The translations under genes and the position numbers were made by a program. From Candidatus Fermentibacterales bacterium (GTDB lineage Bacteria; Fermentibacterota; Fermentibacteria; Fermentibacterales; JAFGKQ01), in the NCBI GenBank assembly GCA_016928495.1, contig JAFGKQ010000104.1:1-5975 (forward strand): a stretch of DNA of 5,975 bases, written 5' to 3'. This document shows, one piece after another, positions 3 through 5,975 of this stretch. The notes beneath the pieces are model-generated. The model saw only the letters and a list, made by a program, of their open reading frames with translations, made no database searches and was not told the origin of the DNA. Numbering within the stretch: the stretch's first letter is position 1; each line of letters begins with the position of its first letter.

Positions 3-1694
3 TCCCCGGAGGAGTCGTGGGAGCAGCGCACCGAGACCACGGGCTGGGCGACGGGCTTCTCCCTGCGTCGCAACGCGAGGTCGAACAGCATTCTGGGCAG
101 GTACCTGATCGATCCCTTCAGGGTCAAGCACAGCTACTCGAGAGGCCTGGGGCGGACCTGGTTCACGAGAGACACCACCACGGCGGCCTCGGGGGAGGTA
201 TCCTACAACCTCTCGCTGGGGCAGATGAGGCTCCTGCGGCTGCCCATCATCGAATACCTGAGGCTGCGTCCCACCAGCGTCTCCTGGACCGTTTCCAGGA
301 GCAACCAGTGGGAGACCAGATGGGACAACTCGGGAGGGACCCCGGTCCAGACCAGGCTGAGCACCTCGAGGAGGCTATTCACCAGCGGTTCAGTGGGCTT
401 CGGCTTCTGGAAGGGGCAGAGCACCTCTCTCGGCCTCTCGGTCAGCAGGGACCTGCTGTACCCCTGGGAAGGCGACATGCCGTTCAACGTGGGAAGGGAG
501 ACATCGAGGAGCCAGCAGGCGGGGGTCTCGCAGGAGATCAACCTCTTCGACTACCTGAAGCCGAGGCTGAGCTGGGACGCCGCCTACTCCAGCTCGAGGC
601 TCGCCCCGCACACCGGAGGCAACGACTCTCTCGGCCTTCACGACTTCTCGGTCTCGACCACGAGGAAGCTCACGCTGAGAGTGGGTCTGGTCCACGCGAT
701 CAGGCGGCTGGCCCGGCTCCGGGACGAGAGGCTGGACGAGCAGGCCGCTCCCGGAAGCCCCAGATGGCTGCTGATGAAGCTGGAGAGGTTCGCCGACCGC
801 ATAACGGACCCGACCATAACGATCAGCAGGACGCAGGGCAGCGACTACAGGGACGCCGACTTCCTTCCCGGGTACACCTACCGCTTCGGGCTCGAGACAG
901 AGCTGGACGAGCTGACGCCCTACGATCGCACCAAGCAGGACCTGTTCCAGGTCTCCACCGGGGTGCGGCCGCTCTCCACGCTCTCCGTCAGGGGAGAGTA
1001 CTCGAACAGCGTCACCAGGCATTACTACTCGGGCTACTGGAACAGGCAGGAGTCGACGACCTGGCCAAGCATCACCGTGTCATGGTCCGGCATAGAGAGG
1101 CTCCCGCCATTCGAGAGCACCTTCAGGAGCATCAACCTCAGCTCCGGCTACAGGGTGGACACCAGCGAGAGCGGAAGGTACGAGAACGAGGAGTACGTTC
1201 CGACCAGCGAGACCCGCGTCACCAAGTGGATGCCGCTGCTTTCCGTGTCGGCTACGTTCCAGAACGAGGTGAGGGTCTCGATAGCCGACAACCGCAGTGT
1301 CACGGAGACGCTCAACTACACGGGCACCAGCGCCCGGACCCGCAGCAGCAGTCACGGCACCACCCTCTCGGTGGAGTACTCGTTCAGCGCCCCGGGAGGC
1401 ATCGCCATCCCCCTGCCGCTCCTCAGCAAGCTCAGGGTGAGTTTCCAGAGCGATCTGACGACCAGTCTGGACATAACCAGGAGCAGGACCGTCAGCGAAG
1501 TGATCGGCGGCATCTCCGGGGACCAGGTCCAGAGCGACAGGGAGGAGTGGCGGATCGAGCCGGCGGCCAACTACGATTTCGGATCCGTAACTGCAGGCTT
1601 GACAGGCATCTATGGCTGGAAGACCGACAGGGTGAACTCGATCTACAACCAGCGCGATGTCGGCATGAACATCTGGATACTCTTCAACTTCTGA
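3..1694 (+). CDS. SprA-like outer-membrane beta-barrel protein, C-terminal part (5' end outside window)
   Basis: The frame is open from the first bases to TGA at 1692-1694, giving 563 visible residues. The ATG at 225 is internal, because coding continues unbroken upstream of it. The protein is rich in Ser, Thr, Arg and aromatic residues arranged as short alternating amphipathic strands, and it ends in a terminal Phe (NIWILFNF), as outer-membrane barrels folded by BAM often do. Two stretches resemble the C-terminal part of SprA, the giant translocon barrel of the type IX secretion system, as I recall that family. They are SWSGIERLPPFESTF (within 1062-1151) and PLLSVSATFQNEVRVSIADN followed by a strand ending before VEYSF (about 1233-1385). 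Its last 60 residues also fit the SprA ending: a strand with SLDITRSRT, a turn, then paired strands. SprA-like proteins also occur outside Bacteroidota, where the substrate is unclear. The barrel assignment is firm; the SprA family call is from memory of motifs, without a search. It is separated from the downstream motor genes by 166 bases, so cotranscription is uncertain. Confidence 0.62.
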   Translation, partial: SPEESWEQRTETTGWATGFSLRRNARSNSILGRYLIDPFRVKHSYSRGLGRTWFTRDTTTAASGEVSYNLSLGQMRLLRLPIIEYLRLRPTSVSWTVSRSNQWETRWDNSGGTPVQTRLSTSRRLFTSGSVGFGFWKGQSTSLGLSVSRDLLYPWEGDMPFNVGRETSRSQQAGVSQEINLFDYLKPRLSWDAAYSSSRLAPHTGGNDSLGLHDFSVSTTRKLTLRVGLVHAIRRLARLRDERLDEQAAPGSPRWLLMKLERFADRITDPTITISRTQGSDYRDADFLPGYTYRFGLETELDELTPYDRTKQDLFQVSTGVRPLSTLSVRGEYSNSVTRHYYSGYWNRQESTTWPSITVSWSGIERLPPFESTFRSINLSSGYRVDTSESGRYENEEYVPTSETRVTKWMPLLSVSATFQNEVRVSIADNRSVTETLNYTGTSARTRSSSHGTTLSVEYSFSAPGGIAIPLPLLSKLRVSFQSDLTTSLDITRSRTVSEVIGGISGDQVQSDREEWRIEPAANYDFGSVTAGLTGIYGWKTDRVNSIYNQRDVGMNIWILFNF

Positions 1695-1860: not shown

Positions 1861-3624
1861 ATGAAGATCGGACAGATGCTCCTGAGAGCCGGTCTGGTAA
1901 CCAAGGAACAGCTCGAAGAGGCCCTCAAGAAGCAGCAGGACGAGGGTGGGCGACTGGGCTTCAACCTGGTGAAGCTGGGGTTCGTCACCGAGGAGCAGCT
2001 CAACTCCTATCTATCCCGCCAGCACCACATCGACAGCATCGATCTGGACAAGGTGAGGGTCAACGAGGATCTGAAGAAGCTGATCCCCGCCGAGATAGCC
2101 AGACGCTACCAGGTCATACCCATCGAGCAATCCAGCCGCACTCTAATAGTGGCCATGACGGACCCGGGCAACCTCTTCGCCATCGACGACCTCCGCTTCT
2201 CCCTCGGAATGGAGATAGAGCCCCACGTCTGCGCCTCGAGCATGGTTCTGCGGGCCCTCAAGGAGTGGTACCCCGAGAGCGAAGCCATCGTGTCGGTCGA
2301 CGAGAAGAACATCCAGACAGCGGTCAAGGACGACAACGACTCCGTCACGGATGACTCGGATCTCATCATGGGGGACGCCGTCTTCGAGACCCTGATCGAG
2401 GAGGGCGAGGACGAGGACGACTTCGTCGGCGAGGACGAGATCATGGCAGAGCTTGCCGACTCTCCCGTCGTCAAGCTCGTCAACTCCGTGATCGCCGATG
2501 CAGTGCGGAGGGGAGCCAGCGACATCCATTTCGAGCCGTTCGAGAAGTTCATAAGGATCCGGTACCGCATAGACGGGGTGCTGCACGAGATAATGCGCCC
2601 CAGCCGCAAGTACCGCTCAGCCCTGGTCAGCCGTCTGAAGATCATCGGAGGCATGAACATCGCCGAGAGGCACCTTCCGCAGGACGGTCGGCAGAAGGTC
2701 AAGGTCGGCGACAGGTTCGTGGACATGCGGCTTGCCACCCTTCCGACTCTGTTCGGGGAGAAGGTCGAGGTCCGTCTGCTCGACAGGTCGAAGGTCATCC
2801 TGGACCTGGAGAAGCTCGGCTTCGAGGAGGAGAGCCTGGCGCAGTTCCGCAGGGCCATACACAGGCCCTACGGCATCGTCCTGGTCACGGGGCCCACCGG
2901 CTGCGGCAAGACGACGACTCTCTACTCCGCGCTGACCGAGCTCAACGATGTGGGCGTCAACATAATGACCGCTGAGAACCCCGTGGAGTTCAACCTCAAG
3001 GGCATCAACCAGGTGCAGATGAACGAGGAGGTCGGCCTTACATTCGCCTCCGCGCTGAGGGCCTACCTCAGGCAGGATCCCGACATTATCATGGTCGGTG
3101 AGATCCGTGACATGGAGACCAGCGCTATCGCCATCAGAGCGGCCCTGACAGGCCACCTGGTTCTCTCCACCACGCATACCAACGATGCTCCCAGCACGAT
3201 CAACAGGCTGGTGGACATAGGGACCGAGCCCTACATGCTCAGCACCTCCCTCGTCTGCATCGCCTCACAGAGGCTGATCAGGAAGCTCTGCCCCAAGTGC
3301 AGGACACCGGTGAGCATCCCCGAGACCGCTCTGGAGGAGGCGGGCATAGACCCGAACCGGTTCGAGGGCGCCACCTTCTATGAGGGCACTGGCTGCGACT
3401 ACTGCAACAACACGGGCTACGCCGGTCGAATCGGCATCTTCGAGGTGATGCCGATCGACGAGGAGATACGAGAGCTGATCGAGAGCGACGCCAATAGCGT
3501 GCAGATCGAGAAGGCCGCCCTGGCCAAGGGCATGGTCAACCTTAGAGAGGCTGCCGTCCGCATCTTCTCCAGGGGCATCACGTCTCTGGACGAGGTCATA
3601 CGCGAGACGGTGGCAACGTCCTGA
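1861..3624 (+). CDS. pilB: Type IV pilus assembly ATPase PilB (GspE/PilB family), paralogue 1, with MshEN c-di-GMP-binding domain
   Basis: This 587-residue protein is a full-length cytoplasmic hexameric motor of the kind that drives pilin polymerisation at the inner-membrane platform. The N-terminus holds two tandem 24-residue MshEN motifs, K2-Q25 and R31-Q54, with the canonical 5-residue linker; the second is near perfect (RLG at 31-33, G40, L47, L51, Q54). An acidic linker (about 138-200) leads to the N2/ATPase module beginning SPVVKLVN. ATPase landmarks are SDIHFEP (D221), Walker A GPTGCGKT (344-351, K350), Asp box AENPVE (N373 where Asp is usual), Walker B region DPDIIMVGEIRD (E414) and His box GHLVLSTTHTND (H432, H439). 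Zinc-site cysteines are C477, C480, C512 and C515, which favours PilB/GspE over PilT. The start is fixed by an upstream in-frame stop and a Shine-Dalgarno. Its stop overlaps the start of the second paralogue (TGATG). The pilT gene downstream favours T4P over type II secretion, although GspE cannot be excluded for one copy. Confidence 0.93.
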   Translation: MKIGQMLLRAGLVTKEQLEEALKKQQDEGGRLGFNLVKLGFVTEEQLNSYLSRQHHIDSIDLDKVRVNEDLKKLIPAEIARRYQVIPIEQSSRTLIVAMTDPGNLFAIDDLRFSLGMEIEPHVCASSMVLRALKEWYPESEAIVSVDEKNIQTAVKDDNDSVTDDSDLIMGDAVFETLIEEGEDEDDFVGEDEIMAELADSPVVKLVNSVIADAVRRGASDIHFEPFEKFIRIRYRIDGVLHEIMRPSRKYRSALVSRLKIIGGMNIAERHLPQDGRQKVKVGDRFVDMRLATLPTLFGEKVEVRLLDRSKVILDLEKLGFEEESLAQFRRAIHRPYGIVLVTGPTGCGKTTTLYSALTELNDVGVNIMTAENPVEFNLKGINQVQMNEEVGLTFASALRAYLRQDPDIIMVGEIRDMETSAIAIRAALTGHLVLSTTHTNDAPSTINRLVDIGTEPYMLSTSLVCIASQRLIRKLCPKCRTPVSIPETALEEAGIDPNRFEGATFYEGTGCDYCNNTGYAGRIGIFEVMPIDEEIRELIESDANSVQIEKAALAKGMVNLREAAVRIFSRGITSLDEVIRETVATS

Positions 3625-5429
3625 TGGGTAAGCCGATGCTGAACAGGCTGGCGATGATGCTGATCGAATCGGGGGTCGTCACGGCCGAGGAGGTCGATGA
3701 GATAGCGAGGGATGTCGGCCCCGGCGAAGCCGAGCTGGCCGAGCATCTGGTCTCGACCGGCAGGGCCCCCGAGGAGCTCATCACCGAGATCCTGGCGGAC
3801 ATGTACAGCGTTGACCCCATATACCTCAACGAGACCAGGATAGAGCAGAAGGTCATCGACCGCATACCCGAGGACATGGCCAGGAGGTTCATCCTGGTTC
3901 CGGTCGGCGAGGAAGCCAGGTTCTTCTCCATCGCCATCTCCGATCCGGGCAACCTCTACGCGATAGACGAGGTCAAGTTCCAGACCGGCAAGGAGGTGCT
4001 GGCCTATGCCTCGGCACCTTCCGCCATCCGCCGCACGCTGGACGAGATCTACGGCAAGGTCGACGACCTCGTGACCGTCGAGGAGTCCCTGAACGAATAC
4101 GACGAGGAAGAGGACAGCCTCGAGGTCGTCGATACCCTTGAGTACGCGACCGACGAAGAGGACGAGGAGGCCGTGGTAGCGGACTCGACGGCCGGCATGG
4201 AGGACGAGCCGGTGGTCAAGTTCGTCAACGACCTCATCATGACCGCCGTGCGCAAGGAAGTAAGCGACATACACGTCGAGCCCTACGAGAAGTACGTCAG
4301 GGTGCGTTACCGGCAGGACGGGACCTGTCATGTGGTGGGCAGGGTGCCGAAGAAGCTGCAGGCGCCGGTCCTCAGCCGTCTCAAGATACTATCCAGGATG
4401 AACATAGCTGAGCGGAGGAAGACACAGGACGGCAGGATCAAGGCGAACATCGACGACAGGACGATCGACTTCCGGGTCAGCGCCGTACCCGCCATCAACG
4501 GCGAGAAGATCGTCCTGAGAATCCTGGACAGGGGCAACCTCGAGTTCGACCTGCGGCAGCTCGGGTTCCCGGAGGACGGCCTCAAGACCTTCATGAAGGG
4601 CATCAACTCTCCGTTCGGCATCGTTCTGGTGACGGGGCCCACGGGCAGCGGCAAGACGACGACGCTCTACTCGGCCCTCAGCCAGCTCAACACGCCTGCC
4701 GTCAACATCCACACCACCGAGGACCCCATAGAGTACCACATCGAGGGCATCACCCAGACCCAGGTGGACCCCGGGATGGGTTATGACTTCGCGGCCTCGC
4801 TCAGGGCCATTCTCAGGCATGACCCGAACATCATCATGGTCGGCGAGATAAGGGACTACGAGACCGCCGCTATAGCAATGAAGGCTTCACTGACCGGCCA
4901 TCTGGTGTTCTCCACCATCCACACCAACGACGCCCCCAGCACGGTCAGCAGGCTCGTGGACATCGGGATCAAGCCCTTCCTGGTCGCCTCCGCCATCAAC
5001 GTCATCATGGCGCAGCGGCTCGTGCGCAAGGTCTGCACCAAGTGCAGGGAGCCGGTCCAGTACGAGGAGGCCGAGCTGGTCGAGGCCGGGATCGACCCCC
5101 TGGAGACAGAGGGAGCGACCTTTTTCAAGGGCATCGGCTGCACGAAGTGCAACGGAACGGGCTACAAGGGCAGGCTCGGGATATTCGAGGTCCTCTCCAT
5201 GACCAGGGACCTCAAGCAGGCCGTAATGGACCGCGTCCCTACCGGAAGGCTGAGGGTGATCGCCGTCTCGGAGGGCATGCGCACTCTCAGGATGGACGCG
5301 GTGGACAAGCTCACGGGCGGCGTCACCACCCTCGAGGAGGTGACCCGCGTTACTGCTGACGATGACGAGGAAGTCAAGCGTGCGCGCAAGAAGTTCCTGA
5401 GGAAGAAGGAAAGAGACAAGACGGCATGA
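3624..5429 (+). CDS. Type IV pilus assembly ATPase PilB-like (GspE/PilB family), paralogue 2, with degenerate MshEN domain and basic C-terminal tail
   Basis: This second full-length PilB/GspE-type motor has 601 residues. Its N-terminal domain aligns without gaps to the two MshEN repeats of paralogue 1 (residues 8-31 and 37-60). However, the glycine of RLG is Ala in both repeats (A10, A39), the second-repeat Arg is E37, and the terminal Gln residues are V31 and M60, so c-di-GMP binding is doubtful. An acidic linker spans about 144-195. The ATPase core is complete: SDIHVEP (D215), Walker A GPTGSGKT (338-345, K344), Asp box TEDPIE (D367), Walker B region DPNIIMVGEIRD (N402, E408) and His box GHLVFSTIHTND (H426, H433). 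Zinc cysteines are C471, C474, C506 and C509. The last 23 residues (579-601) run from acidic to strongly basic (KRARKKFLRKKERDK), a tail absent from paralogue 1. There is no clear Shine-Dalgarno; the TGATG overlap implies translational coupling. ATG at 3636 (residue 5) is a possible alternative start. Its role may be an alternate or partner extension motor, or a GspE. Confidence 0.9.
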   Translation: MGKPMLNRLAMMLIESGVVTAEEVDEIARDVGPGEAELAEHLVSTGRAPEELITEILADMYSVDPIYLNETRIEQKVIDRIPEDMARRFILVPVGEEARFFSIAISDPGNLYAIDEVKFQTGKEVLAYASAPSAIRRTLDEIYGKVDDLVTVEESLNEYDEEEDSLEVVDTLEYATDEEDEEAVVADSTAGMEDEPVVKFVNDLIMTAVRKEVSDIHVEPYEKYVRVRYRQDGTCHVVGRVPKKLQAPVLSRLKILSRMNIAERRKTQDGRIKANIDDRTIDFRVSAVPAINGEKIVLRILDRGNLEFDLRQLGFPEDGLKTFMKGINSPFGIVLVTGPTGSGKTTTLYSALSQLNTPAVNIHTTEDPIEYHIEGITQTQVDPGMGYDFAASLRAILRHDPNIIMVGEIRDYETAAIAMKASLTGHLVFSTIHTNDAPSTVSRLVDIGIKPFLVASAINVIMAQRLVRKVCTKCREPVQYEEAELVEAGIDPLETEGATFFKGIGCTKCNGTGYKGRLGIFEVLSMTRDLKQAVMDRVPTGRLRVIAVSEGMRTLRMDAVDKLTGGVTTLEEVTRVTADDDEEVKRARKKFLRKKERDKTA

Positions 5430-5975
5430 ACATAAAAACCCTTCTGAAAGAGATGATGGAGCGGAGGTCCACCGACCTCCACCTCACCGTGGGCGTTCCT
5501 CCGACCATCCGGGTCGACGGCGACCTCTTCAAGATGGAGTACGATCCGCTGTCCCCTCAGGAGACCCAGGACCTGGTCTACAGCCTTCTCAAGGACGAGC
5601 AGAAGAAGCGATTCGAGATGGAGAAGGAGCTGGACTTCGCCTTCGGGATAAAGGGGCTCTCCAGGTTCAGGGCCAACGCCTTCGTCCAGAGGGGCTGCGT
5701 TGCCTGCGCCATCCGTGTGATTCCCTACGAGATATTGAGCTTCGAGGAGCTGGGGCTTCCCGAGGTCGTGGCCAAGTTCGCCGACAAGAGGCAGGGCCTC
5801 ATCCTGGTCACGGGTCCCACGGGCTGCGGCAAGTCCACCACGCTCGCCTCCATCATCCGCAAGGTGAACAGCCAGAGGCGGGTCCACATCCTCACCGTCG
5901 AGGACCCGATCGAGTACGTGCTTTACGACAAGGAAGCGATCATCAACCAGCGCGAGCTGGGCGTGGACACCAACA
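5426..5975 (+). CDS. pilT: Type IV pilus retraction ATPase PilT, N-terminal part (3' end outside window)
   Basis: The reading frame opens at ATG 5426, overlapping the previous stop by ATGA, and runs off the window after 183 codons, about half of the usual length of roughly 350 residues. It starts directly with the PilT PAS-like domain (MNIKTLLKEMMERRSTDLHL, then GVPPTIRVDG) and has no MshEN domain. PilT-typical blocks follow in order: ELDFAFGIKGLSRFRANAF, GLPEVV, LILVTGPTGCGKSTTLAS (Walker A K136), HILTVEDPIEY (E159, D160) and NQRELGVDT. The Walker B, His box and C-terminal AIRNLIRE-type segment lie beyond the end. PilT hexamers power pilus retraction and thus twitching, adhesion and DNA uptake. 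A PilU-like paralogue cannot be excluded without the C-terminus, but the first-in-line position after pilB favours PilT. AAGGA at 5406-5410 is rather far from the start, so translation probably relies on coupling to the upstream gene. Confidence 0.93.
   Translation, partial: MNIKTLLKEMMERRSTDLHLTVGVPPTIRVDGDLFKMEYDPLSPQETQDLVYSLLKDEQKKRFEMEKELDFAFGIKGLSRFRANAFVQRGCVACAIRVIPYEILSFEELGLPEVVAKFADKRQGLILVTGPTGCGKSTTLASIIRKVNSQRRVHILTVEDPIEYVLYDKEAIINQRELGVDTN

Follow-up and report, generated by a model that had tools for sequence, protein, structure and literature searches.

In MshE from Vibrio cholerae, cyclic dimeric guanosine monophosphate (c-di-GMP) is bound by an N-terminal MshEN domain; the variants G11L and G40I were not stabilised by c-di-GMP, and G11 mutants lost binding (PMC5013675). 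Binding has been lost naturally in XpsE, which has Val and Leu at the Gly positions and Val at the last Gln (PMC5013675), and it was abolished in the GSPII-B domain of PilF when both Gln residues were changed together, while the Arg of the motif is dispensable, Lys and Leu being found in strong binders (PMC11731258). Here we analyse a window that comprises one entire contig (G000:C193; 5,975 bases) of a Candidatus Fermentibacterota genome (81% complete), in which two genes for PilB-type ATPases, pilB1 and pilB2, lie side by side. PilB1 resembles MshE in its predicted fold and in its two motifs of 24 residues, joined by a linker of five (PMC5013675); the MshE study concerned a single ATPase, whereas in this contig a degenerate copy stands next to the intact one, a split that is fixed in Fermentibacterota. 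We consider it rather probable that PilB1 and PilB2 both extend one type IVa pilus, PilB1 under the control of c-di-GMP and PilB2 blind to it.

The N-terminus of PilB1 contains two intact MshEN motifs of the pattern RLGxx...LxxxLxxQ, separated by five residues (K2-Q25 and R31-Q54), to which the corresponding segments of PilB2 (residues 8-31 and 37-60) align without gaps, carrying A10, V31, E37, A39 and M60. The original prediction, made from the bare sequence, had given these motif residues and their coordinates in both paralogues, and they proved exact when checked against the sequence. The contrast that it drew between a canonical and a degenerate copy was reproduced by NF053729, the NCBI model of the c-di-GMP motif, which matches PilB1 well beyond chance (67.3 bits, E 7.6e-19; cut-off 38) and in the profile search gave no listed match for PilB2 of the window. 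A further loss in PilB2 is that of a pocket Leu, replaced by A28 at position 21 of motif 1, and the Leu of position 17 is replaced in both motifs (V24, I53); altogether PilB2 lacks both Gln, both Gly, the Arg of motif 2 and one pocket Leu, with the fold retained. The Lys-Ile that replaces Arg-Leu in the first motif of PilB1 is not a defect, because Lys/Arg and Ile/Leu alternate among its orthologues and Lys at the first position is tolerated in known c-di-GMP binders (PMC11731258). With TIGR02538, the PilB equivalog model (curated cut-off 675.65), PilB1 scores 684.1 bits and PilB2 630.8, which is below the cut-off, yet this is the best model for PilB2.

The tandem pilB pair was found in nearly all of the 42 genomes sampled from the phylum, with readable N-termini for 37 PilB1 and 37 PilB2 proteins. 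All 37 PilB1 orthologues have Gly (position 3) and Gln (position 24) in both motifs, with Arg or Lys at the first position, and the structural Gly of motif 2 is the sole position that drifts. Among the PilB2 orthologues Gln is absent from both motifs (0/37 in each), Arg is absent from motif 2 (0/37), and the Gly of motif 2 and the Leu at position 21 of motif 1 survive in only two of 37 each. When the two copies are read together, every scorable pair (33/33, excluding unscorable fragments such as the broken second copy of G005, locus L050) combines an intact first copy with a degenerate second one. NF053729 matches 37/37 PilB1 proteins (58.5 to about 70 bits for the 11 scored individually), and its best score on a PilB2 orthologue is 30.9 bits, below the cut-off. 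Motif conservation in the adjacent pairs of relatives, which the original prediction had named as a check, thus follows the expected pattern, and since the orthologues of PilB2 consistently lose these residues and those of PilB1 keep them, a responsive and an insensitive motor are the best sequence-level reading of the pair.

The loss of motif residues and the lower TIGR02538 score would also be expected of a decaying duplicate whose N-terminal domain drifts freely. This is very improbable: nearly every genome of the phylum has PilB2, the protein retains its catalytic boxes, and its N1 region is conserved as well as that of PilB1 (mean pairwise identity among orthologues 0.656 and 0.636, respectively; in the ATPase part 0.774 vs 0.825), on which ground we rejected decay. 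Walker A, the Asp box, Walker B, the His box and four Cys residues are kept in both proteins, and the N-terminal domain of PilB2 has near-invariant residues peculiar to it (GPGE, EELITEFLAEIY, LNE). Conservation at the level of PilB1 indicates a domain that was repurposed and not abandoned, and argues for PilB2 as a working motor.

As to the ligand, the combined losses of PilB2 (both Gln, at least one Gly, one Arg and one pocket Leu), taken with the published effects of mutations at these positions, make it likely that PilB2 does not bind c-di-GMP in the MshEN manner, while PilB1 would be expected to bind it by its MshEN domain. Both N-terminal domains are predicted to adopt the MshEN fold (AlphaFold2, mean predicted local distance difference test score: 85.9 for PilB1, 89.4 for PilB2; comparison with Foldseek). 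The best PDB match of the PilB1 domain is c-di-GMP-bound MshE (5HTL_B, E 6.4e-13, 35% identity), and that of the PilB2 domain is PilF GSPII-A (E 2.2e-9), the one domain of PilF that does not bind (PMC11731258); the matches of PilB2 include 9G1W, 5HTL, XpsE and Xanthomonas citri PilB. The predicted structures thus agree with a binding PilB1 and a non-binding PilB2. In the models, helix 3 of PilB2 begins about three residues earlier than in PilB1 and helix 2 is about three residues shorter, shifts that may hide the backbone amides holding the guanine.

The genome gave 14 GGDEF hits (7 of the 8 sequences inspected have GG[DE]EF) and three HD-GYP hits, so that the organism probably makes c-di-GMP; an EAL (FimX-like) protein was not found in the search of this 81% complete genome. 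One PilZ-domain protein was found (L225, 666-1055), a small stand-alone protein that has RxxxR and NxSxxG motifs and is encoded away from the pil locus. The PilZ and EAL results bear on the possibility that the N-terminal domain of PilB2 is controlled by a protein ligand, as the motif-less PilB of Xanthomonas is with PilZ. The domain's own conserved pattern (GPGE, EELITEFLAEIY, LNE) fits such control, and so does the X. citri PilB-PilZ complex as the PDB entry with the top query-normalised template modelling score for PilB2 (0.65), with one stand-alone PilZ in the genome as a candidate partner; however, by its motifs this PilZ looks like a c-di-GMP receptor, unlike the Xanthomonas PilZ, its gene is unlinked, and a FimX-like protein was not found. 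We regard a protein ligand as possible, though not the likely case; it could coexist with the gated and blind motors favoured above.

Only one PilC/T2SSF protein was found in the genome (two T2SSF repeats in one gene), on a contig (C191) that starts inside pilT, and with one PilC the two extension motors probably serve one platform and hence one pilus. The contig carries the end of pilT, then pilC, then a membrane protein resembling the start of a PilS kinase, and it is the probable continuation of the window. A relative (L085) has, in this order, a sprA-like gene, pilB1, pilB2, pilT, pilC, a histidine kinase with a PAS domain (pilS), a sigma-54 response regulator (pilR), an unknown gene and two pilin-like genes. 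These last two genes could be taken to mean that PilB1 and PilB2 drive separate filaments (two pili, or one pilus and one pseudopilus of a secretion system) and are merely adjacent, in keeping with the one ATPase per machine of many species, such as MshE and PilB of V. cholerae (PMC11656802). The single PilC found in the genome, the single PilT in the block and the persistence of the side-by-side pair in at least three phylum-level groups make this quite improbable.

In most genomes pilB1 and pilB2 are separated by 11-13 nucleotides or overlap by 8, and in the window they overlap by 1 nucleotide or lie 11 apart, depending on the start of pilB2. The start at 3636 may be likelier than that at 3624, because the conserved N-terminus of the orthologues begins at M5 of PilB2. 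Overlaps or gaps of 11 nucleotides make a single mRNA for both genes plausible, and the locus layout is consistent with one transcript. A more intimate association, the mixed machine of the original prediction, in which PilB1 and PilB2 co-assemble into one hexamer and sensing and blind subunits allow graded tuning by c-di-GMP, draws on this adjacency, on the shared fold (about 45% identity between the two proteins), on the single pilC found and on a 2024 review that leaves heterooligomers of two extension ATPases possible; the same review describes PilB-type ATPases as homohexamers (PMC11656802), and we consider the mixed hexamer unlikely.

The pilB-pilB-pilT block is present also in about 35 sampled loci of WOR-3/Stahlbacteria and, with three pilB copies, in Edwardsbacteria/UBP2; the adjacent pair is thus retained across at least three phylum-level groups. 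The loci examined from Gemmatimonadota, Eisenbacteria and Zixibacteria have a single pilB before pilT. Some WOR-3 and Eisenbacteria genomes have a single pilB before pilT with degenerate MshEN motifs (L200, L201, L203-L206, L216, L218-L221). In Edwardsbacteria/UBP2 (L207-L213, L111, L127) the first two PilB proteins are intact where readable and the last, PilT-proximal copy is degenerate everywhere it was read; in the UBP2 locus L111, scored by DNA position, the middle copy is intact and the last, which ends a longer open frame, is degenerate. The WOR-3 loci are mixed (both copies intact, second lost, both altered, or first lost): 11 pairs are intact in both copies by a strict Gly and Gln test (an example of a pair with both copies intact is G055, L167), three have a clearly degenerate first copy (an example of the reversed type is G082, L188), and several have one Gln changed only. 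In one WOR-3/Stahlbacteria clade (L118, L122, L124, L171, L175, L177, L186) the first copy departs from the motifs solely at the last Gln of motif 2, which is His or Tyr, and the second has lost far more. The split was therefore rejected as a general rule for tandem PilBs, and the responsive and insensitive pair of the original prediction, although fixed in Fermentibacterota, is not universal.

The tree was built from the ATPase domain alone, with the MshEN motif excluded. All first copies, Fermentibacterota PilB1 among them, fall on one side of a branch (52 rows; Shimodaira-Hasegawa-like approximate likelihood ratio test, SH-aLRT, 97), and a further group (SH-aLRT 86) unites the second copies of WOR-3 and Edwardsbacteria/UBP2. 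Forcing Fermentibacterota PilB2 to join these second copies gave a log-likelihood 4.2 above that of the free tree (approximately unbiased test, p-AU 0.57). The tree is compatible with a single old duplication behind the pairs, which is unproven because PilB2 sits on a long branch; a recent duplication within Fermentibacterota is not favoured, as PilB1 groups with the first copies of WOR-3 and Edwardsbacteria and PilB2 can be placed with the second copies. A key Gly was lost in 29/52 second copies vs 4/50 scorable first copies, a contrast that rests on few events, since the fewest changes on the tree are three and two, respectively. Motif loss in the PilT-proximal copy came later, in several lineages. 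The pilB genes of L150 (titled Chryseobacterium sp.; nesting among Bacillaceae) and L102 (titled Gammaproteobacteria; among Gemmatimonadota) probably come from mislabelled or contaminated assemblies.

In the two-motor model that we favour, PilB1 would bind c-di-GMP by its MshEN domain and extend the pilus, or extend it better, at high levels of the messenger. PilB2 would be a full motor by its catalytic motifs, with an N-terminal domain unable to bind c-di-GMP in the MshEN manner and reshaped for another, constant role, e.g. attachment to the base of the pilus or to a partner protein. The paralogous motors would alternate on, or share, one PilC platform, the likeliest form being two homohexamers that alternate on it, one gated and one not, so that a basal level of extension would be available to the cell, with a c-di-GMP-gated activity on top of it. 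Binding by PilB1 and its absence in PilB2, the shared PilC, the physiological gating and any mixed hexamers are what we infer. Several points weigh against this model. Replacement of Gly by Ala is milder than the tested changes to Leu or Ile, some PilB2 orthologues retain one Gly, and binding by either protein is deduced from sequences and models. A split is not required for keeping two PilBs, because the WOR-3 pairs include both-intact and three reversed ones; a second pilC could be missing from a genome that is 81% complete; and the same genome encodes a third, distant GspE/PilB-like ATPase with degenerate motifs (L086, G000:C123). Finally, binding of c-di-GMP need not mean on/off control, because PilB2 of Clostridium perfringens, as cited in a review, binds it with an unchanged ATPase rate (PMC11656802). 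On a wider scale we offer, as a doubtful speculation, that a pair of motors from an ancient duplication, encoded in one operon in several candidate phyla, acts as a c-di-GMP rheostat on one pilus, composed of a sensing and a blind motor and possibly of one hetero-hexamer, with sensing lost from one partner in several lineages and usually kept by the other.

All four genes of the window (the end of a SprA/Sov-like gene, pilB1, pilB2 and the start of pilT) are on the + strand. A very large SprA/Sov-like gene lies directly 5' of pilB1 both here and in L085 (1990-7581; SprA_N 3.1e-22), and L083 and L071 have an open frame of similar size at its place. The Asp box of PilB1 has Asn (N373) in place of the usual Asp, reading TAENPVEF in 33/34 Fermentibacterota PilB1 proteins and TAENPVEY in the remaining one, and PilB2 has EDP or EEP; this Asn may alter catalysis.

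Table 1. Coordinates of the genes, domains and motifs of the window.
Feature	Positions	Strand	Description	Evidence
SprA/Sov-like gene	3..1694	+	Large protein, C-terminal part; neighbour, outside the motor pair	TIGR04189 22.1 bits, weak, below cut-off
pilB1	1861..3624	+	Type IV pilus extension ATPase, 587 aa, intact MshEN N-terminal domain	TIGR02538, NF053729, PF00437, PF05157
PilB1 MshEN motif 1	1864..1935	+	K2-Q25	Sequence; Gly and Gln in 37/37 orthologues
PilB1 MshEN motif 2	1951..2022	+	R31-Q54	Sequence; Gly, both Leu and Gln in 37/37 orthologues
PilB1 MshEN domain	2029..2283	+	C-terminal part	Domain match, PF05157
PilB1 ATPase domain	2455..3603	+	Asp box TAENPVEF, Asn for Asp at 2977-2979	PF00437
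PilB1 stop codon	3622..3624	+	1-nt overlap with first possible PilB2 start (ATG 3624)	
pilB2	3624..5429	+	Second PilB-type ATPase, 601 aa, degenerate MshEN motifs, catalytic boxes intact	TIGR02538 630.8 bits
PilB2 degenerate motif 1	3645..3716	+	R8-V31; Gly to Ala10, Leu to Ala28, Gln to Val31	
PilB2 degenerate motif 2	3732..3803	+	E37-M60; Arg to Glu37, Gly to Ala39, Gln to Met60	
PilB2 MshEN fold	3822..4058	+	C-terminal part	PF05157, 52.9 bits
PilB2 ATPase domain	4200..5348	+		PF00437
pilT	5426..5974	+	Retraction ATPase, truncated by the contig end; 4-nt overlap with the end of pilB2	TIGR01420 239.7 bits on the 183 aa present

There are precedents for intact as well as degenerate MshEN domains, and also for multiple extension motors. 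PilB2 of C. perfringens, as cited in PMC11656802, is a c-di-GMP-binding PilB from an organism with more than one PilB. PilB of X. citri, in its complex with PilZ and FimX, and XpsE resemble PilB2 of the window in having the MshEN fold without the c-di-GMP residues; they differ in that the cited work describes no extension ATPase with the motifs as their partner in one operon (PMC8389850, PMC5013675). Thermus PilF likewise combines binding and non-binding domains of the MshEN type for one pilus, and its non-binding GSPII-A differs from the consensus at the last position of motif 1 and has a degenerate motif 2 (PMC11731258), but its domains reside in one polypeptide and not in two paralogous ATPases. 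We found no description of a conserved adjacent pair with a phylum-wide split in the literature searched, which covered few subscription journals and preprints, and the asymmetric pair seems to be undescribed before. A 2024 review (PMC11656802) lists as open why more than one pilB is kept by some bacteria and whether two extension motors share one machine. The loci described here provide natural matched pairs that differ at the c-di-GMP pocket, with the motor kept and the operon conserved, and WOR-3 has pairs in which both copies are seemingly able to sense; clean comparisons of binding, of mixed hexamers and of the ligand of the reshaped PilB2 domain are therefore possible. Among cases of two motors acting on one pilus, the closest is that of Acinetobacter baylyi, whose extension motors PilB and TfpB play distinct roles in a single pilus system (PMC8213720). 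TfpB differs in being encoded outside the pilB locus, in belonging to a distant family and in its control by the inhibitor CpiA (PMC8213720), and membership of its family (NF053534, cut-off 850) was rejected for PilB1 and PilB2, which score far lower, at 464.6 and 454.0 bits, respectively.

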